53,379 nucleotides of DNA. It comes from an uncultured Gallionellaceae bacterium. GTDB lineage: Bacteria; Pseudomonadota; Gammaproteobacteria; Burkholderiales; Gallionellaceae. Shown here piece by piece: positions 5,753-24,600 of the stretch (position 1 is the stretch's first letter; every line of letters starts with the position of its first letter). A program made the translations under genes and the position numbers. Below the pieces are notes generated by a model, which was not told where the DNA came from, made no database searches, and was given only the letters and a program-made list of their open reading frames with translations. Location: NCBI GenBank assembly GCA_903876625.1, contig CAIRAO010000435.1, positions 1 through 53,379 on the forward strand. The letters are read 5' to 3'.

Positions 5753-6631
5753 ATGTGTACAACATGCGGTTGTGGGTCAGGTCAAACGCTTATTGGTGGG
5801 CACGCACTTAAGACGCAGCGAATCGCTGCGGGTAAAGTGCAATATCGGGCGCGGGAAAACAACCATGAGCATACGCACGAACACTCACATACTCACGATT
5901 CAATAGATTTCAGTGCTGGACCAGCAGGCGCACACGCCCCCGGAATGAGTCAGGCGCGCATGGTGAAAATCGAGCGCGATATTCTTTCAAAGAATGATAG
6001 CTATGCAAATGAAAATAGAAACTATCTTGCGGAACACGGCATCTTTGCGCTTAATCTGGTCTCAAGTCCAGGTTCAGGTAAAACCACCCTGTTAGTAAAA
6101 AGTATCAACGAATTGAACGGAAGTTTGCCGCTCACCGTTATAGAGGGTGACCAGCAGACAGATAATGATGCTGCTCGCATACGTGCAACAGGTGCTCCAG
6201 CACTACAAATCAATACCGGTAAGGGATGTCACTTGGATGCCTACATGGTGGGTCAGGCGATGCAACAACTGAAATTGCAAAACAACAGCTTATTGCTGAT
6301 TGAAAACGTTGGTAATCTGGTGTGCCCGGCCAGTTTTGATCTGGGCGAAGCACACAAGGTGGCCATTCTTTCCGTGACCGAAGGAGAAGATAAACCGCTT
6401 AAATATCCAGACATGTTCCGTGCCTCGGATTTGATGCTGCTAAATAAATGCGACCTGCTACCCTATCTTACTTTTGATGCGAATCTCGCAATCGAGAATG
6501 CGCGCCGCGTTAACCCGAATATTCATGTCATCCGTATTTCTGCCACTAGCGGCGAAGGTATGGATGAATGGCTGAAATGGATAAAGGCGGGTTGCACGAA
6601 AGCTGCCACAAGCAGAATTGCCGGAAATTAG
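5753..6631 (+). CDS. hypB: HypB GTPase with His-rich stretch
   Basis: MCTTCGCG N-terminus, [24 protein letters not shown]-loop. Confidence 0.96.
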
Positions 6632-6658
6632 CGTTACCTTAACGAAATTTTGATCTCA

Positions 6659-8962
6659 ATGATCCACGCTCAAATCAGAGTATCCGGTCAAGTCCAAGGT
6701 GTGGGCTTTCGTCCTTTTGTTTTTCGGCTCGCGCATGAACTCGGACTTGCTGGCTGGGTGCGCAATGATAATGAAGGAGTCGAAATCGCAGTCGAGGGTG
6801 CGCGTCAGCAAGTGATGCGTTTGATCGAGCGTCTGCAAAGTGAACCGCCTGTCATGGCGCGAGTAGAAAAAGTCACGCACGAATTTGCAGATACGAAAGG
6901 CGATTTGCGAGGTTTCAGTATAGCAGCGAGCAAGATGGGGAAAGTGCAAACTGGCATTGCGCCCGACATGGCGATTTGTCCGGAATGTCTGGCCGAATTA
7001 TTCGATCCTGCTGACCGACGCTATCGCCATCCATTTATCAACTGTATTCATTGCGGGCCACGCTACACCCTAACCGCACGCATGCCTTACGACCGCATAA
7101 ACACTAGCATGGCAAAGTTCACTCAATGCGCTGAGTGTCAGCACGAATATGACAATCCCGACACGCGCCGTTTCCACGCTCAACCGAATGCCTGTCCGAA
7201 ATGTGGACCGCGTTTGAAGTTGAACAATGAACAATGGCAAGAAATTGTAACTGGTGATCCTATTGCAGCAACTGCAGAACTAATTCGCACGGGACATATC
7301 GTTGCAGTCAAAGGCATTGGCGGTTTTCATTTGGTGTGTGATGCACGAAATGATCAGGCAGTGGCTAAATTAAGAAGCGGTAAACAGCGTCAAGAAAAAC
7401 CTTTCGCGGTGATGGTGTTGAATCGACTGTCTGCAAGTTACTATGCACAGTTTCCCGAACATGAAGCGAGCCTGCTCGAAGTAAGCGAACGCCCAATCGT
7501 GCTGATGAACAAATCGGAAACATGCGATGCTGAATTAGCCGATATAGCCCCTGGCTTAAGTAGTATCGGTCTGATTTTGCCTTACACACCGCTGCATTAT
7601 TTACTCTTTCACGAATTGCTAGGCAAACCGGATGAAAAAGATTGGTTACAACAAGCTTCGCATTTGGCTCTGGTGATGACGAGCGCTAATCCGGGTGGCG
7701 AGCCATTGGTGATCAATGACATGGAAGCTCGTGATTCACTGACTGGTTTGGCAAACGCATTCCTGAGTAATGATCGTGAAATATTGCATCGATGTGACGA
7801 TAGTATATTGAAGTGGCAGGACACTGCTGCAGCATTTATTCGTCGTGCTCGAGGATACACACCACGTCGCATTATATTGCCGTTTTCAGGCCCCTCGGTG
7901 TTGGCATGCGGGGCATGGCTAAAAAATACAGTCTGCCTCACGCGAGGTAATGAAGCTTTCGTCTCACAGCATATCGGTGATCTCGATCATGCCGGCGCGA
8001 GAAATATGCTGGACGAGACTGTCGATCATTTGTGCCACATTCTTGATGTGAAACCGCAAGTTGTTGCACACGATCTGCACCCGGATTTTTATAGCACGCA
8101 GTTTGCCCAAACCTACGCAGCAGAACATAGTTTGCCTATCTATGCTGTCCAACATCATCATGCACATATCGCAGCGATTTGTGCCGAACATCACGTCAAT
8201 GAACCTGTATTAGGACTGGCTTTGGATGGAGTGGGTCTTGGATCGGATGGTAGTGCTTGGGGTGGAGAACTTTTACTGGTGGATGGAGCCGACTTTAAAC
8301 GTTTGGGGCACCTTGCACCATTGACTATGCCGGGCGGCGACCGAGCAGCCCGCGAACCTTGGCGGATGGCATCATCTATACTTTTTGATTTAAACCGTAA
8401 TGAAGAAATTACAAAACGTTTTCAAACACAGAGTGGAACAGAAACAGTTGTAGGCATGTTGCAGCGCAAGTTGAATTGCGTTCCCACAACCAGTTTGGGT
8501 CGCTATTTCGATGCTGCTGCAGGATTGCTTGGAGTAAATAGTATCCAAGGTTACGAGGGACAGGCGGCCATATTACTGGAAGGGTTGGCGACACAGTATG
8601 GATATGTTGCTGCACTCACTCAAGGCTTCACAATCTCAGCCGATGGAATATTAGATTTTCATGCATTACTAACTGAACTTGTCGATTGCACAGACGCAGC
8701 ATACGGAGCGGCAATATTTCATGCCACGGTTGCTGAAGGGCTGACAGCATGGGTACTTCGAGCGACCGAGCAAAACAAAATAATACATGTAGCGCTAGGT
8801 GGGGGCTGTTTTTTGAATAATATCTTATCGAATTTATTGGTGAAAAAATTGTCAGCCAACGGGTTGAATGTATTAACAGCCAGACAACTCCCACCAAACG
8901 ATGGGGGAATTTCATTTGGGCAAGCCAGCATTGCTCTGCAAAGTAAAAATAAAGGAGTTTAA
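6659..8962 (+). CDS. hypF: HypF carbamoyltransferase
   Basis: Acylphosphatase motif VSGQVQGVGFRPFVFRLA, CPECLAEL and CIHCGPRYT zinc fingers, YrdC-like and Kae1-like regions. Confidence 0.96.
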   Translation: MIHAQIRVSGQVQGVGFRPFVFRLAHELGLAGWVRNDNEGVEIAVEGARQQVMRLIERLQSEPPVMARVEKVTHEFADTKGDLRGFSIAASKMGKVQTGIAPDMAICPECLAELFDPADRRYRHPFINCIHCGPRYTLTARMPYDRINTSMAKFTQCAECQHEYDNPDTRRFHAQPNACPKCGPRLKLNNEQWQEIVTGDPIAATAELIRTGHIVAVKGIGGFHLVCDARNDQAVAKLRSGKQRQEKPFAVMVLNRLSASYYAQFPEHEASLLEVSERPIVLMNKSETCDAELADIAPGLSSIGLILPYTPLHYLLFHELLGKPDEKDWLQQASHLALVMTSANPGGEPLVINDMEARDSLTGLANAFLSNDREILHRCDDSILKWQDTAAAFIRRARGYTPRRIILPFSGPSVLACGAWLKNTVCLTRGNEAFVSQHIGDLDHAGARNMLDETVDHLCHILDVKPQVVAHDLHPDFYSTQFAQTYAAEHSLPIYAVQHHHAHIAAICAEHHVNEPVLGLALDGVGLGSDGSAWGGELLLVDGADFKRLGHLAPLTMPGGDRAAREPWRMASSILFDLNRNEEITKRFQTQSGTETVVGMLQRKLNCVPTTSLGRYFDAAAGLLGVNSIQGYEGQAAILLEGLATQYGYVAALTQGFTISADGILDFHALLTELVDCTDAAYGAAIFHATVAEGLTAWVLRATEQNKIIHVALGGGCFLNNILSNLLVKKLSANGLNVLTARQLPPNDGGISFGQASIALQSKNKGV

Positions 8963-8965
8963 TTT

Positions 8966-9220
8966 ATGTGCCTCGCCATACCAGCCCGAATTGAAGAATT
9001 GACGACCCCTGGCAACGCGATCGTCAATCTTGGAGGCGTACGCAAAGAAATATCATTGGCACTGGTAGATGATGCGCAAGTGGGTGAATATGTGATCGTG
9101 CACGTGGGGTATGCCTTGCAAAAGTTAGATCAGGAAGAAGCGGAATTGACTCTAAAAATGTTTGCAGAAATGGGCGTAATGGATGAACTGCGTGATGAAC
9201 TGAATGGAAGCATGGCATGA
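8966..9220 (+). CDS. hypC: HypC chaperone
   Basis: MCLAIPARIEEL..., VHVGYALQKLDQEEA. Confidence 0.95.
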   Translation: MCLAIPARIEELTTPGNAIVNLGGVRKEISLALVDDAQVGEYVIVHVGYALQKLDQEEAELTLKMFAEMGVMDELRDELNGSMA

Positions 9221-10329
9221 AATTCATCGATGAGTTTCGGGATGGCGAGTTGGCAAAAAACATTGCCTTAAACATCAAACGTGAAACCAAAACAAATAAA
9301 TCTTATCGCTTGATGGAGTTTTGTGGTGGTCATACCCATGCCATATCAAGATATGGCCTCGTGGATTTGTTGCCGGCAAATGTACGCATGATTCACGGCC
9401 CCGGCTGCCCTGTATGTGTCTTGCCTATCGGACGTGTGGATCAGGCCATACAGCTAGCGCGCGAACACGGTGTAATTTTGTGCACTTATGCCGATACATT
9501 GCGCGTGCCCGCTTCGAATAATCTTTCACTGATGAGAGCAAAGGCCAACGGCGCAGATGTGCGCATGATCTACTCGACACAGGATGCATTGAAGATAGCA
9601 CGCGAAAATCCGGCTCGGGAAGTCGCTTTTCTCGCAATCGGCTTTGAAACCACAACACCGCCCACAGCAGTAGCAGTCAAACAAGCTGCTGCAGAAAAGT
9701 TGAATAACTTCAGTATATTGTGTGACCATGTTCTAACACCAGCCGCGATGCATGCCATTTTGACAGTTGAAGGAGGAGTATCTATAGATGGATTTGTAGG
9801 GCCTGCTCATGTTTCAACGGTAATTGGCAGCAAGCCTTATGAACCATTCTCTGATGATTATGGCAAGCCAGTTGCTATCGCTGGTTTTGAACCCCTCGAT
9901 GTGATGCAAGCCATTCTCATGCTGGTGCGCCAGATAAACGAAGGGCGTGCCGAAGTTGAGAATGAATTCACGCGCGCAGTATCACGCGAAGGTAATCTCA
10001 AAGCACAAGCATTGGTGAATGAAATTTTCGAGTTGCGAGATCAGTTCGAATGGCGAGGACTGGGTAGCGTTCCCAAGAGTGCATTGAAATTGCGTTCAGA
10101 ATATTCAGCGTTTGATGCAGAATTAAAATTCAAGATCAATTACGTAGCAGTACCGGACAACAAGGCCTGTGAATGTGCTGCTATATTGCGCGGCCAAAAA
10201 CGACCGCAGGAATGCAAAATATTCGGCACGGTGTGTACACCCGAAAATCCAATCGGCTCATGCATGGTGTCATCTGAAGGCGCATGTGCAGCACATTACA
10301 GTTATGGAAGATTCAGGGAAAGCGCATGA
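9217..10329 (+). CDS. hypD: HypD
   Basis: MEFCGGHTHAISRYG, GPGCPVCVLP, FGTVCTPENPIGSCMVSSEGACAAHY. Confidence 0.96.
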   Translation: MKFIDEFRDGELAKNIALNIKRETKTNKSYRLMEFCGGHTHAISRYGLVDLLPANVRMIHGPGCPVCVLPIGRVDQAIQLAREHGVILCTYADTLRVPASNNLSLMRAKANGADVRMIYSTQDALKIARENPAREVAFLAIGFETTTPPTAVAVKQAAAEKLNNFSILCDHVLTPAAMHAILTVEGGVSIDGFVGPAHVSTVIGSKPYEPFSDDYGKPVAIAGFEPLDVMQAILMLVRQINEGRAEVENEFTRAVSREGNLKAQALVNEIFELRDQFEWRGLGSVPKSALKLRSEYSAFDAELKFKINYVAVPDNKACECAAILRGQKRPQECKIFGTVCTPENPIGSCMVSSEGACAAHYSYGRFRESA

Positions 10330-11378
10330 CAAGTTCAGTAAAGTCTAACTACACAAGACAACTTGATATCAAAAATGGTCGTGTGGATATGTCCCATGGT
10401 TCAGGCGGGCGTGCTATGGCACAACTCATTACCGAACTGTTTGCAACTGCATTCAATAACGAATATCTGGCTCAGGGTAACGATGGTGCATTGCTACCTG
10501 CAGCTAATGGAAGAATCGTGATTGCAACAGACAGCCATGTGGTATCTCCTTTGTTCTTTGCGGGTGGAGACATTGGATGTCTATCCGTGCACGGCACGAT
10601 CAACGATGTTGCAGTGATGGGAGCGAAGCCACTTTATCTGGCGGCTTCTTTCATACTTGAAGAAGGTTTCCCTCTCGCCGAATTGAAACGCATCGTTGAA
10701 TCGATGGCAAAAGCGTCTCGCGATGCGGGTGTACCAGTAGTTACCGGCGATACCAAGGTGGTCGAACGTGGCAAGGGTGATGGCGTTTTCATTACAACGA
10801 CGGGAGTAGGCGTGGTGCGTGAAGGCATCAACCTTTCGGGTGATCTTGCACAGCCGGGTGACAAAATTTTACTTTCAGGAACGATCGGCGACCACGGTAT
10901 GGCGATTCTGTCGCAGCGTGAAGGGCTGACTTTTTCTGCCCCCATTATTTCTGACACTGCAGCATTGCACGGTCTCATCGCCGCAATGCTCGACAGCGGT
11001 GTTAAGCCGCGAGTATTACGCGACCCCACTCGAGGTGGCGTTGCTACAACACTGAATGAAATAGCCAAACAATCCTCGGTCGGCATGATGCTGTATGAAT
11101 CTGCCATTAAGGTGAATCAGCCGGTTGAAGCGGCCTGCGAATTTTTAGGTCTTGATCCTCTATATGTCGCCAATGAAGGTAAATTAATCGCGATTTGTGC
11201 TCAGGAAGATACACAGAGGTTGCTCGAAGTGATGCGCGGACATCATCTTGGACAAGCATCATCTATCATCGGAGAAGTGTTGGAAGATGCTCACGGCTTT
11301 GTACAGATGACTACCAAAATGGGTGGTCGCCGTGTTGTCGATTGGTTGGCGGGCGAACAACTACCCAGAATTTGTTAG
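10326..11378 (+). CDS. hypE: HypE
   Basis: MSHGSGGRAM, DPTRGGVATTLNE, C-terminal PRIC. Confidence 0.96.
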   Translation: MTSSVKSNYTRQLDIKNGRVDMSHGSGGRAMAQLITELFATAFNNEYLAQGNDGALLPAANGRIVIATDSHVVSPLFFAGGDIGCLSVHGTINDVAVMGAKPLYLAASFILEEGFPLAELKRIVESMAKASRDAGVPVVTGDTKVVERGKGDGVFITTTGVGVVREGINLSGDLAQPGDKILLSGTIGDHGMAILSQREGLTFSAPIISDTAALHGLIAAMLDSGVKPRVLRDPTRGGVATTLNEIAKQSSVGMMLYESAIKVNQPVEAACEFLGLDPLYVANEGKLIAICAQEDTQRLLEVMRGHHLGQASSIIGEVLEDAHGFVQMTTKMGGRRVVDWLAGEQLPRIC

Positions 11379-11388
11379 AGGATTCCAA

Positions 11389-12837
11389 ATGGCAACATTA
11401 CCTACAATTTTGGTCATCGACGATGAAGTGCGTTCGCAAGAATCTTTGCGTCGCACACTTGAAGAAGATTTCACAGTGCGAACAGCAACCAGTGCAAAAG
11501 ATGGGCGCACGATCATGGAACGTGAAACGATTCAAGTCATTTTATGCGACCATCGCATGCCGGAAACGACTGGAGTTGATTTCTTAAAAGAAGTACGCGA
11601 ACGATGGCCAGACACGGTACGAATTATCATTTCGGGTTATACCGAAACGCAAGACATCATCGCGGGTGTAAATGAGGCAGGAATTTATCAGTATGTCATG
11701 AAGCCCTGGCATCCCGAGTCTTTGTTGCTAACGGTGAGAGCGGCCGCGCAGTTGTATGACCTGCAACAGCAAACTCAGCACATGAATCTGGAATTGCGTA
11801 CCGCCGAACCGGTGATGCGCCGCCGGGTGGAAACTAAGCGCGAGAAATTGCGTGACTACTATGAATTTTCCCGTGTTACCCGCGCCGCAGCGAGCCCTTT
11901 GAATGGAGTGGTTGACATGGCCTCTCGTGTGGCAGGTAGTGATATTTCAGTGCACATTGCAGGGGAATCAGGTACAGGCAAGGAACTGCTCGGACGAGCG
12001 ATCCATTATTCCAGTCCCCGCTCGGGTCGTGCATTCGTAATTGAAAATTGCGGGGCGATGTCTGATCAATTACTGGAATCAGAATTGTTTGGACACAAAC
12101 GCGGGAGTTTCACCGGAGCCTTTGAAGATCGCATCGGTTTATTCGAACAGGCTGATGGAGGAACGATATTTCTCGACGAAATAGGCGATACCTCTCCTGC
12201 ATTTCAAGTCAAATTGCTGCGCGTATTGCAGGAAGGAGAGATTCGACCCGTGGGTAGTTCCCGCTCGCGCAAAGTGGATGTTCGCGTCCTTTCTGCAACA
12301 AATCGCGACTTGGAAGAAGAAGTGCAGCGTGGGCGCTTCAGGGCAGACCTTTACTATCGCCTGACCCAGTTTGTTTTGGCGGTGCCTCCATTGCGGGAAC
12401 GCAAAATGGATATTCCATTGATCGCATTCGATCTGCTTAACAGCGCTGCTCAGAGCATGGGCAAAGATGTGGCGGGATTTTCACCCGAGTCTCTGGATTG
12501 TTTGACTCGCTATCATTGGCCTGGAAATGTGCGCGAATTGCAAAACGAAATTTTGCGCGCGTTGATGTTGAGTGAAAATCCGCATATCGGCGCTCATTTA
12601 TTTTCCGCAAGAGTACTGCGTGCGACACCGGAAGAAGACGCAACTGATATGCAGGTTCTTTCCGGAATAAACGGCAGCCTCAAAGAACGTATGGAAACGC
12701 TGGAGGCGCGGGTACTGCGTGAAACGTTGATACGCTTGCGCTGGAACAAGACTCGTGCTGCGGCTGAGCTGGGTCTTTCACGAGTCGGATTGCGCAGTAA
12801 GTTAACTCGCTATGGGCTGGAAAAGAAAATTGAATAA
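11389..12837 (+). CDS. hupR: HupR/HoxA NtrC-family response regulator
   Basis: Receiver TILVIDDE...CDHRMP; AAA+ [22 protein letters not shown]-terminal [20 protein letters not shown]; next to hupUV/hupT. Confidence 0.92.
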
Positions 12838-13849
12838 TACGGGCAATCGCGAGCCGCTTAATTTGCTCTGGTTGCAATCCGGTGGTTGCGGCGGTTGTAC
12901 GTTATCTCTGCTAAATGCAGACTGCAGCAATTTATTCGATACCCTGTCCGGATTTGGGATCAATTTACTTTGGCATCCTTCTTTGTCGGAACAGAGCGCA
13001 AAAGAAGCACGTCTCATCATTAACGACTGTGTGACAGGTGTAACCCGGCTCGACATTTTGTGTCTGGAAGGAGCAATTTTAAGAGGCCCTTATGGCAGCG
13101 GAGGTTTTCATCAAACCACGGGCGGTGATTCAATGATGTCATTGATTGAAAAACTTGCCGGTGTTGCGCGCCATACGGTAGCGGTGGGAAGCTGCGCAGC
13201 ATATGGAGGAGTCACCTCTGCCGGTAGTAATCCCGCAGATGCATGCGGACTCCAATTTGAGGGTGATGTTCCTGGTGGATTGCTGGGGCGTGAATATCGG
13301 GACAGTAGCGGTTTGCCTGTGATCAATATTGCCGGTTGCCCTACACATCCGAATTGGGTGATCGAAACACTTGCCTCGATCGCAACAGACATGCTGAACA
13401 CTCAAAGTCTGGATGTTTATCAGCGCCCGCGTTTATATGCAGATCATTTAGTTCACCACGGTTGTTCGCGTAACGAATTTTATGAGTTCAAGGCGAGCGC
13501 CCACAAACCCTCCGACCTGGGTTGTTTAATGGAAAATATGGGATGCAAAGGTACGCAAGCGCATGCAGACTGCAATATACGCCCGTGGAATGGAGAAGGT
13601 TCCTGCGTCAGGGGCGGGTTCGCTTGCATAGCATGTACCGAACCTGGCTTTGAAGAACCTGGGCATCCATTTGCTGAAACTCCAAAATTGGGAGGCATCC
13701 CGATCGGTTTACCTATTGATATGCCGAAAGCGTGGTTCGTCGTGTTGGCTTCATTGTCCAAATCTGCCACACCCAAACGTGTAAAAGAAAATGCGGTGGC
13801 AGATCATCAAGTCGTTACACCGGCAGCTAAAAGGACACGAAAGAAATGA
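12812..13849 (+). CDS. hupU: Regulatory (H2-sensing) hydrogenase small subunit HupU/HoxB
   Basis: LQSGGCGGCTLSLL, no Tat signal, C-terminal FeS Cys motifs; overlaps hupR. Confidence 0.93.
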   Translation: MGWKRKLNNTGNREPLNLLWLQSGGCGGCTLSLLNADCSNLFDTLSGFGINLLWHPSLSEQSAKEARLIINDCVTGVTRLDILCLEGAILRGPYGSGGFHQTTGGDSMMSLIEKLAGVARHTVAVGSCAAYGGVTSAGSNPADACGLQFEGDVPGGLLGREYRDSSGLPVINIAGCPTHPNWVIETLASIATDMLNTQSLDVYQRPRLYADHLVHHGCSRNEFYEFKASAHKPSDLGCLMENMGCKGTQAHADCNIRPWNGEGSCVRGGFACIACTEPGFEEPGHPFAETPKLGGIPIGLPIDMPKAWFVVLASLSKSATPKRVKENAVADHQVVTPAAKRTRKK

Positions 13850-15294
13850 AACGCTTAGTCGTGGGACCTTTCAATCGCGTCGAAGGCGATCTTGAGGTTT
13901 CGCTCGAAGTTGTGGATGGAAGCGTACACGCTGCCTATGTTAATTCCCCGATGTACCGAGGGTTTGAGCAGATACTAAAAGACAAGCATCCGCTAGACGC
14001 GCTGGTATACGTGCCAAGAATTTGCGGGATTTGCTCGGTGGCGCAGTCGGCAGCTTCAGCTCAAGCATTGGCTCATGCGATGGGTTTGCAGTCACCTGAG
14101 AATGGGCGTCTATCAGCCAACCTGACGCTTGCCACAGAGAACATTGCAGATCACTTGAGCCATTTTTATTTGTTCTTTATGCCTGACTTTGCCCGCGATT
14201 TTTACAAGGCAAAGCCATGGTTTCCCGATGCGCAATTACGATTCAAAGCGGTTAGCGGCAGCGCCAATGCGGATGTTCTGCCCGCGCGAGCAAAATTCAT
14301 GAACTTGATGGGTTACCTTGCGGGGAAATGGCCGCATACTTTATCTTTGCAACCGGGGGGTTCATCCAGACCAATCGAGCTTGCAGAGCAAATGCGGTTG
14401 TCAATTTTAGTGACTGAATTTCGAGTTTTCCTTGAACGGACTTTGTTTGGTGACAAATTAGAAACATTTGCCAGTCTGGATTCTGAAGCATCTTTACTGG
14501 CATGGCTGGAGTCGCGTAAAACATCAGCAGACTTACCTCGTTTTCTGACCATTGCTTACGATTTGGAGTTACATAAATTGGGGCGGGCAACGGATCGATT
14601 TATGAGCTATGGTGCGTATCATAATGGCGAACAGAATTTGTTTTCTGCGGGCCTATGGGAAGACAACAATTTGCAATCACTTGATATTGCAGAGATACGC
14701 GAAGATGTCTCACATAGTTGGATGGAGGGGGATATAGCGCTACCACCTGCCACAGGCAAAACCTTGCCTCTGCCCGGAAAGATTGGCGCATATTCCTGGT
14801 GCAAGTCACCCAGATTGAATCGAAGAGTTGTCGAAACGGGAGCACTTGCCAGACAAATTGTGGCGGGACATCCTATGGTGCGAGATTTGGTGGCACGTCA
14901 CGGCGGCAATGTGACAGCACGTGTAATTGCGCGATTGCTGGAAATTGCCCGCGTGCTCCCTGAGATGGAAAAATGGATTAGAAGGCTGCGCCCCGGTGAG
15001 CCATTCTGTTTCAATGCAACAAGCTTGGTAGATGCCAGTGGTATTGGTTTAATTGAGGCGGCACGCGGTAGTTTGGGTCATTGGCTTGAAGTTCGGCAGG
15101 GCAAAATTTACAATTACCAGATCATCGCACCGACCACCTGGAATTTTTCACCACGCGACGAATCCGGCGAACCGGGCGCTTTAGAGCAAGCCTTGGTAGG
15201 CGTAAAGATTGAAGACAATAATGAAGGCGCACCCGTTGCAGTGCAACATGTTGTGCGGTCATTTGATCCGTGTATGGTATGCACGGTGCATTAA
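13846..15294 (+). CDS. hupV: Regulatory hydrogenase large subunit HupV/HoxC
   Basis: RICGICSVAQ L1 motif and terminal DPCMVCTVH followed directly by stop. Confidence 0.94.
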   Translation: MKRLVVGPFNRVEGDLEVSLEVVDGSVHAAYVNSPMYRGFEQILKDKHPLDALVYVPRICGICSVAQSAASAQALAHAMGLQSPENGRLSANLTLATENIADHLSHFYLFFMPDFARDFYKAKPWFPDAQLRFKAVSGSANADVLPARAKFMNLMGYLAGKWPHTLSLQPGGSSRPIELAEQMRLSILVTEFRVFLERTLFGDKLETFASLDSEASLLAWLESRKTSADLPRFLTIAYDLELHKLGRATDRFMSYGAYHNGEQNLFSAGLWEDNNLQSLDIAEIREDVSHSWMEGDIALPPATGKTLPLPGKIGAYSWCKSPRLNRRVVETGALARQIVAGHPMVRDLVARHGGNVTARVIARLLEIARVLPEMEKWIRRLRPGEPFCFNATSLVDASGIGLIEAARGSLGHWLEVRQGKIYNYQIIAPTTWNFSPRDESGEPGALEQALVGVKIEDNNEGAPVAVQHVVRSFDPCMVCTVH

Positions 15295-15296
15295 TC

Positions 15297-16652
15297 ATGA
15301 ACGACTTCGACAAGTCACCCTTCGAGCATCTCACCTCGACAACACCACCTGATGCCATGTCCGAATCTACTTGGATAGATGTTGTGCACAAGATGGATGA
15401 GGTCTACAACGAACTGCTGCAACACGAAGTTGAACTGGAAGAAAAGAATGATGAACTGGAAGAAACCCAGCAATTTATTTTTAGTGTGCTTACCTCAATG
15501 TCCGACTTGCTTGTTGTGTGCGACCGACATGGAGTGATCGAAGAAGTTAATCAGGCGCTAATCATTTTTACCGGCAAGAAGGAGGATGAACTTAAACGAG
15601 CAAAATTTGTATCGTTACTTGCCGATACTGAGTCTGGTAGTGTTGCAGAACATGCTATTGCGCGGTTAACTGCCGAGCCGTCACATGATTTGGAGTTGCA
15701 ATTCAGTACGCGAGAGGGCAGCGCCACACCCGTAGCGCTTAATTTTACAGCACGAATGTCCGGAACCGGAAAACTTTTGGGAGCCGTTATCACCGGTAGA
15801 CCGGTTGGCGAATTGCGCCGCGCATATCAATCCCTGCGTGAGGCACATGACCAACTTAAACGCACCCAGCAACAGTTACTGCAATCTCAAAAAATGGCTT
15901 CATTGGGACAGCTGGTAGCCGGGGTCGCACATGAACTTAATAATCCCATCAGCTTTGTTCTTGGCAACGTATATGCCATGTCTCGCTATACTACGCGTAT
16001 TAAGCAGTATCTGGATTCGGTTCACGCCGGAGCAAGTCGCCAAGAGTTGGGCAAGTTGCGTGAAGAACTGCGCATAGATCACATTTTGAAAGATCTTTCA
16101 CCCTTGCTGGAAGGTGCGATTGAAGGCGCAGAACGTACACGCGATATCGTCGATGGCCTAAAGCGTTTTTCCGCTACCGACCGCAACGAAAATGTGAAAT
16201 TTAATCTGGCAGAAATTATCGAACGTTCAGTACAATGGGTAACACGTGCAACCCCTGCAAAGTTTCGTGTGAATTTGAATTTGCCCAATGATCTGCCAGT
16301 TTTGGGTTCGCCAGGGCAAATGCAGCAAGTGATCATCAACTTGATTCAAAATGCTGCTGATGCAACTGAACAACAGGCTGAGCCAGCATTGGCGGTGTCG
16401 GCACAGGAAGAAAATGGAGAAATCATTGTACGGTTTCGCGACAACGGAAGCGGTATTGCCATTGAAGCACTCGAGAAAATGTTTGACCCGTTTTACACCA
16501 CAAAGCCGGTTGGAAAAGGAACCGGACTTGGTCTATCAGTAAGCTACGGCATAGTTGAACGTCATGGAGGAATGCTTTCAGCCAGTAACCATCCTCAAGG
16601 TGGAGCGGAGTTTGTATTGCGACTACCACGTACGCTTGCTAATTTTGCTTAG
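15297..16652 (+). CDS. hupT: PAS-containing histidine kinase HupT/HoxJ
   Basis: PAS-like region, H-box LVAGVAHELNNPISFV, N/G boxes (NLIQNAADA, DNGSGI, GTGLGLSVSYGIV). Confidence 0.93.
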   Translation: MNDFDKSPFEHLTSTTPPDAMSESTWIDVVHKMDEVYNELLQHEVELEEKNDELEETQQFIFSVLTSMSDLLVVCDRHGVIEEVNQALIIFTGKKEDELKRAKFVSLLADTESGSVAEHAIARLTAEPSHDLELQFSTREGSATPVALNFTARMSGTGKLLGAVITGRPVGELRRAYQSLREAHDQLKRTQQQLLQSQKMASLGQLVAGVAHELNNPISFVLGNVYAMSRYTTRIKQYLDSVHAGASRQELGKLREELRIDHILKDLSPLLEGAIEGAERTRDIVDGLKRFSATDRNENVKFNLAEIIERSVQWVTRATPAKFRVNLNLPNDLPVLGSPGQMQQVIINLIQNAADATEQQAEPALAVSAQEENGEIIVRFRDNGSGIAIEALEKMFDPFYTTKPVGKGTGLGLSVSYGIVERHGGMLSASNHPQGGAEFVLRLPRTLANFA

Positions 16653-24066: not shown

Positions 24067-24100
24067 TAGCGAAGGCAGAGAATCTAAACATAAGTGACCT

Positions 24101-24125
24101 AAAATCGTGCGTTTTACTCGATTTT
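24101..24125. promoter_or_regulatory. Dyad AAAATCG-N11-CGATTTT, candidate enhancer-binding-protein site
   Basis: Perfect 7-bp inverted repeat, about 100 bp upstream of the sigma54-like promoter at 24214. Confidence 0.35.
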
Positions 24126-24213
24126 GGTGCAAAAGGCACTTAGGCAAATATTTACAAAATATTAATTTATTATAATTCAACAAGTAAAAGTAATTGGGCA
24201 TAAGGATCATTTG

Positions 24214-24229
24214 TGGCACGATATTCGCT
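24214..24229 (+). promoter_or_regulatory. Candidate sigma54 (-24/-12) promoter
   Basis: TGGCACG-atat-TCGCT; -24 half perfect, GG and GC invariants at correct spacing. Confidence 0.65.
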
Positions 24230-24239
24230 TTATAGAGTT

Positions 24240-24340
24240 CGTATGGAAGAATTTTGCGCTCCTCCTCCCTTGCACTCAATTTTTCTATGCATCTTTGTAT
24301 CTCCTCCTATTTGGGCATCCTGTGTGGATGCCCGTTTTTT
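24240..24340 (+). ncRNA. Candidate sigma54-dependent sRNA (about 100 nt) with two CTCCTCCT anti-Shine-Dalgarno motifs
   Basis: Bounded by sigma54-like promoter (24214-24229) and intrinsic terminator; CTCCTCCT at 24259-24266 and 24301-24308; no convincing ORF. Confidence 0.55.
24313..24340 (+). terminator. Rho-independent terminator
   Basis: gggcatcc-tgtgt-ggatgccc-g-tttttt. Confidence 0.88.
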
Positions 24341-24417
24341 CAGGAAAAATAAATTGAAATTTGATTTGATACAAACGTGTTTCGATGTAAAGTAACTCTA
24401 AGCAGATGGAGTAAGTA

Positions 24418-24600
24418 ATGAGTGCACACAACCACGAAACCGAAAGACTTCTGAAACGTATCAGACAATTACAAACTGAATACGAACTACAAGAAAATCA
24501 AAAGGAAATGGCATTAAGAACGTTAGCTGAGCAACTTGAAATAGCTCAAAAAAGAATTGTAGAGCTTGAATCGAAGTATATAAAACATGAAATTGTATGA
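24418..24600 (+). CDS. Small coiled-coil protein (60 aa)
   Basis: MSAHNHETERLLKRIRQLQTEYELQENQKEMALRTLAEQLEIAQKRIVELESKYIKHEIV; strongly helical heptad-like composition. Confidence 0.4.
   Translation: MSAHNHETERLLKRIRQLQTEYELQENQKEMALRTLAEQLEIAQKRIVELESKYIKHEIV

Follow-up and report, generated by a model that had tools for sequence, protein, structure and literature searches.

The window, the whole stretch of 53,379 nucleotides that was analysed, contains on its plus strand a unit consisting of two NtrC-type sites, a sigma54 promoter and a predicted noncoding sRNA at 24240-24341. The -24/-12 element TGGCACGATATTCGCT (TGGCACG-atat-TCGCT) is located at 24214-24229. The predicted RNA starts 12 nt past the C of the -12 element and ends within the T run, and the covariance model R1 matched positions 24233-24341. 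Its first hairpin (24241-24290) has a stem formed by 24241-24253 and 24278-24290, and the loop holds a first copy of the octamer CTCCTCCT at 24259-24266. It is followed by a single-stranded linker (24299-24308) with the anti-Shine-Dalgarno (anti-SD) seed UCUCCUCCU at 24300-24308, containing the second copy of the octamer at 24301-24308, and by an intrinsic terminator of the form GGGCATCC-TGTGT-GGATGCCC-G-T6 (24312-24340), with the stem at about 24312-24334 preceding T6. Upstream, the NtrC-type sites TGACCTAAAATCGTGCG (24095-24111) and TACTCGATTTTGGTGCA (24115-24131) lie 20 bp apart and agree with 7 and 8 of the 10 consensus positions, respectively; the left half of both is degenerate. Two ORFs, of 48 and 60 aa, overlap with the unit, and the next gene on the same strand begins at 24418. 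Every element named in the sequence-only reading of this DNA was found at the place given there.

The match to the promoter on its own was within chance, as two matches with at most one mismatch were present in the 53-kb window and 0.95 were expected. Therefore, the case for the unit rests on its conservation. With both strands of the window counted, the octamer CTCCTCCT was found three times, compared with 0.62 expected, and the occurrence of two copies within 50 nt is unusual.

To find relatives, positions 24101-24345 were used as BLASTN query against 150 genomes of the same family. Only one other genome of the genus, G030, yielded a close orthologue (82% over about 130 bases, E 6.6e-28). 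In about twenty other copies, which came mostly from a neighbouring genus, the match was confined to the linker and the terminator. TGGCACGATATTCGCT is letter-for-letter the same in the window and in G030 (16/16); the GTGCG half of the first NtrC-type site and GGTGCA of the second are also common to both, and the sequence in between has drifted. The dyad AAAATCG (24101-24107) and CGATTTT (24119-24125), previously put forward as a possible enhancer, is present in the window but not kept even in G030 and was rejected; the paired NtrC-type sites occupy the same place.

Of the 22 best loci, counting the window and G030, 19 carry TGGC-N8-GC at the corresponding position ahead of the first hairpin. 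The promoter had played no part in finding these loci, which were collected by the match of linker and terminator alone. The element was missing in L025, in L029 and in the second of two tandem sRNA copies, ∼190 bp apart, at L027 (G044:C1:592539-592828), which has no clear -24/-12 element. Model R1 extended the sRNA to other families of the order. At the level of the class its matches were weak and mixed, and those below about 30 bits were not accepted as members because many resemble terminators alone. Named genomes were also scanned for a pattern combining promoter, seed and terminator, which gave 25 stretches. By inspection, most are real members, from Sideroxyarcus, Sideroxydans, Ferriphaselus, a Gallionellaceae MAG, a Methylophilaceae MAG and further betaproteobacterial MAGs; L118, L131, L133 and L135 look like chance matches. 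Iron oxidisers are among the betaproteobacteria in which relatives occur.

In the predicted fold of the transcript (24239-24341), a hairpin of 13 bp is joined to the terminator by an unpaired linker that contains CTCCTCCT; the z-score was -7.0, with none of 200 shuffles as good. In an alignment of 38 sigma54-type members, standard pairs made up 91.5% of the pair cells, which dropped to 43-49% in slid controls. Changes on both sides were observed in 18 of 22 pairs compared with 9.5 in shuffles (0/500 as high); the alignment was fitted to the covariance model, which favours structure, but the double changes are numerous nonetheless. Covariation was strong in the first hairpin, the sequence of which diverges by group (AUGGAAGAAUU in the window, GAAAGCGG in the neighbouring genus and GAAGGCAAC in other betaproteobacterial MAGs), and the linker UCUCCUCC is near-invariant in the 38 members. 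Both octamers that had been proposed as anti-SD motifs are present and predicted to be unpaired (0.90 for the first, 0.99 for the second), but only the linker copy is conserved among relatives, so that two identical octamers were discarded as a signature. The loop copy is particular to the window: G030 has ACTCCCCC at that place, most other Gallionellaceae have a CU-rich loop, and several members have none. Conservation of the -24/-12 element, hairpin, linker seed and terminator in relatives, together with the lack of any Rfam match, supports the sequence-only proposal of a sigma54-dependent sRNA with an anti-SD seed.

Closed ORFs within the RNA have at most 22 codons and none is conserved, and the distances from start-like codons to the seed are spread evenly over all three frames. 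Therefore, the RNA is taken as noncoding, in agreement with the earlier statement that the unit lacks a convincing ORF; reading frames are not kept among relatives. The two overlapping ORFs and the same-strand gene at 24418 would fit a transcribed leader, an attenuator or a small-protein gene instead of an sRNA. However, the genes adjoining the sRNA differ between relatives and no frame is preferred, and with neither frames nor neighbours conserved this reading was rejected as very improbable. Sequence and comparison together establish the promoter and the boundaries of the gene, its hairpin, seed and terminator, its lack of coding function and, in relatives, the layout of the NtrC-type sites.

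To characterize the upstream region, 42 sigma54-type promoters were scanned for 17-bp TGCAC-N7-GTGCA sites, which we take to be the NtrC consensus, with agreement in at least 7 of 10 positions and with positions counted from the -24 element. Sites starting at -97 to -103 or -77 to -83 were present in 31 of the 42 promoters, against an expectation of 3.3 and at most 9 in any of 200 shuffle rounds; 15 promoters had sites at both positions (expectation 0.03, at most 1 in any round). These statistics ignore kinship among the sequences. The conserved upstream elements are two such NtrC-type sites, 20 bp apart. Since the 42 promoters were gathered by requiring TGGC, promoter conservation among them is partly selected, and 19/22 is the fair figure. 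The consensus was put to the test by a search for the layout of sites plus promoter in 11 genomes, which gave 24 matches, compared with three for a reversed control pattern; no exact match to this pattern was obtained in the window's own species. The same layout was found upstream of glnA, of a urea amidolyase associated protein gene and of a NitT/TauT-type binding protein gene.

In seven genomes, a sigma54 promoter and the same NtrC-type site precede torF, which encodes a TorF-type porin, and in six of them a P-II/glnK gene is next (L151, L152, L154, L155, L160, L168, L170). NtrC-type sites and a sigma54 promoter were also present at rnfA in five genomes of the family (L148, L150, L159, L162, L164); the identity of one rnfA was tested by a family model, and the four others with this layout are presumed to be rnfA from reading of their sequence. 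This suggests that the Rnf complex may be under nitrogen control in these bacteria.

Because the layout of the sRNA is also found before glnA, torF-glnK, rnfA and the urea-amidolyase-associated gene, NtrC, and with it nitrogen, is the likely activator. The genome of the window encodes NtrC (703 bits, above the cut-off), NtrB, RpoN and Hfq. The features of an NtrC/sigma54-dependent sRNA, a -24/-12 promoter at the RNA start and upstream NtrC sites, are both found, the sites being clear in relatives and degenerate in the window. As their left halves are degenerate, the sequence speaks less strongly for NtrC control in the window species than in relatives, although such control is likely there too. 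Of the stimuli named previously, 'nitrogen, hydrogen or another', the conserved NtrC-type sites and the glnA/glnK/urea-gene layout leave nitrogen.

A further part of the window (5753-16652) includes an NtrC-family regulator gene at 11323-12837, the product of which scored in the profile search. The other genes in this part are presumably hydrogenase maturation genes, the small and large subunits of a sensor-type hydrogenase and a histidine kinase, and the cluster is likely an H2-sensing system. This regulator, or another enhancer-binding protein than NtrC, might activate the same anti-SD sigma54 sRNA, given that the genome contains at least seven high-scoring NtrC-family activators, one of them inside the window, and that the window's own NtrC sites are imperfect. 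However, the conserved sites are of NtrC type, their layout recurs before glnA, glnK and urea genes, and most relatives were not found beside hydrogenase genes, which makes a non-NtrC activator unlikely, although it keeps some weight.

The seed equals the anti-SD core, and as an accessible, conserved, CU-rich seed complementary to Shine-Dalgarno (SD) sequences it places the RNA in the functional class of anti-SD sRNAs. A search for the extended complement AGGAGGAGANAC or AGGAGGAGA before ATG yielded no conserved target. The full complement AGGAGGAGA stands before just a few start codons in each genome, and these are not the same from genome to genome, which suggests that real targets probably pair over fewer bases, with other contacts in addition. 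The extended-complement matches were not accepted as targets, as they were partly the opposite strands of the sRNAs themselves and the remaining genes, which we take to encode YbhB-like, TetR-like, PilJ-like, SEL1-repeat and secreted repeat proteins, were not common to genomes. ntrB, considered by analogy with the sRNA NfeR1, was rejected because the complement is absent from its start region. A general decoy, which as a mimic of the 16S anti-SD end would dampen translation broadly or would act as an Hfq sponge, could account for a seed equal to the anti-SD core, for the lack of a conserved extended target complement and for the several siblings with the same seed. Nevertheless, the full seed has few strong SD matches, and ordinary target-pairing sRNAs have the same hairpin-seed-terminator architecture; a decoy is regarded as quite improbable.

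The probable reading, held with good confidence, is a free-standing sRNA gene under control of NtrC and sigma54 that represses via an SD-pairing seed, probably with Hfq. Upon nitrogen limitation, phosphorylated NtrC would bind the two sites at 24095-24131 and activate sigma54 RNA polymerase at 24214-24229. An sRNA of about 100 nt would then run from near 24240 to the terminator near 24341, with the first hairpin, the single-stranded UCUCCUCCU seed and the terminator hairpin with its U tail. The seed would pair with the SD regions of selected mRNAs, probably aided by Hfq, and block their translation; dependence on Hfq is an assumption based on the U tail and on hfq being present. Expression, NtrC activation in this species, Hfq use, pairing and repression are predictions.

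In the window's own genome, R1 matched five places with E < 1e-4 (C435, C35, C274, C7 and C299) and, more weakly, a sixth (C395, E 0.04) with two UAUCUCC motifs. All six have a hairpin, a CUCC-type linker and a terminator, and a recognisable sigma54 promoter is present only in the window copy. The candidate siblings are L098 (G000:C35), L099 (C274), L100 (C7), L101 (C299) and L145 (C395), all with a CUCCUCC-type linker like that of the window copy; as contamination of the assembly is estimated at 5.6%, they need not all belong to one organism. A sibling group that includes those on C274 and C299 and is found in many relatives has repeated ATATAGGCC/GGCATATATGC elements upstream (L099, L101, L108, L059, L061, L066, L102, L109, L052). 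The gene just upstream of these siblings in several relatives presumably encodes a monothiol glutaredoxin. It is tentatively proposed, at somewhat less than even confidence, that one SD-blocking RNA body was duplicated repeatedly in betaproteobacteria and came under different promoters, with one copy nitrogen-responsive via NtrC and sigma54 and others behind, for example, a TATATAGGC-type element, in several relatives directly after the monothiol glutaredoxin gene.

Two other places were observed in the course of these searches. On the minus strand of the window, 23455-23373 combines a hairpin and a CUCCCC linker with a strong terminator and lies upstream of the GGDEF/EAL gene. It resembles a further sibling (28 bits), but was rejected as a second sRNA because the terminator alone is common to other loci. 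In L202 (G000:C443, in the window's own genome) and L198 (G030:C56), the stretch GTTGAGACTTTCTGAGTCAACCTTAAGACGG ahead of a terminator is conserved and may be a further unannotated RNA.

The window was compared with the 4227 families of Rfam release 15, with the gathering cut-off of each family as criterion, and no family matched in the window or at the sRNA in 30 related loci, which bears out the earlier impression that no described family is involved. Lowering the threshold for the unit brought up nothing but NsiR9, at 13.7 bits on the opposite strand, which is a chance match. No Gallionellaceae sRNA family was found in Rfam or the open-access papers searched, and no description of CUCCUCC or sigma54 sRNAs in these bacteria was found in the latter.

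NrsZ of Pseudomonas aeruginosa is induced by nitrogen limitation via NtrB/NtrC and RpoN; it has at least 226 nt, is processed, adjoins ntrC and activates rhlA through a conserved ACAGGCAG motif (PMC9308961). Control by NtrC and RpoN, as predicted for the window sRNA, is the likeness, whereas the window sRNA has about 100 nt, lies away from ntrC, which is on another contig (C78), carries a CUCCUCC anti-SD seed and lacks ACAGGCAG in 24240-24341. The alphaproteobacterial NfeR1/alpha-r14 ('Cuckoo-type') sRNAs, which are linked to the nitrogen stress response, block ribosome binding with anti-SD motifs CCUCCUCCC; NfeR1 has three hairpins, each with the motif unpaired, and is activated by LsrB, repressed by NtrC and independent of Hfq (PMC10746234). 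Here too the anti-SD seed is fixed and hairpin stems vary, but the window RNA has one hairpin and a terminator instead of three hairpins with CCUCCUCCC, its seed lies in the linker between these two, and its sigma54 promoter has NtrC-type sites. The NmsR siblings of Neisseria meningitidis form a tandem pair with two anti-SD motifs, sigma70-like promoters and stringent control (PMC5362039). Compared by description only, they likewise come from betaproteobacteria, carry two anti-SD motifs and have siblings, and differ in the promoters under stringent control and the tandem pair. S17 of Bordetella pertussis and the Burkholderia bdhR1 'toxic sRNAs' (RF02278), predicted to block ribosome binding on many mRNAs, share with the window sRNA conservation in betaproteobacteria and this predicted block, but have a sigma-A promoter and are processed by RNase E from a longer RNA (PMC11722255); RF02278 had no match in the window or relatives. 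The unit represents an uncatalogued sRNA family and, on the features compared, is not a member of NrsZ or alpha-r14. By sequence, it is a real sRNA gene that matches no catalogued family, with a predicted control resembling that of NrsZ and a seed resembling the NfeR1 type.

The predicted sRNA would link nitrogen starvation, via a recognisable NtrC-sigma54 promoter, to control of translation by a seed that mimics the 16S anti-SD. With a covariance model and an explicit promoter at hand, it can be tested directly in relatives such as Sideroxydans and Ferriphaselus. The sibling set would be an example of several signals acting through one seed and, if the proposed copying is true, a single organism would dampen translation via one common seed in answer to many signals.
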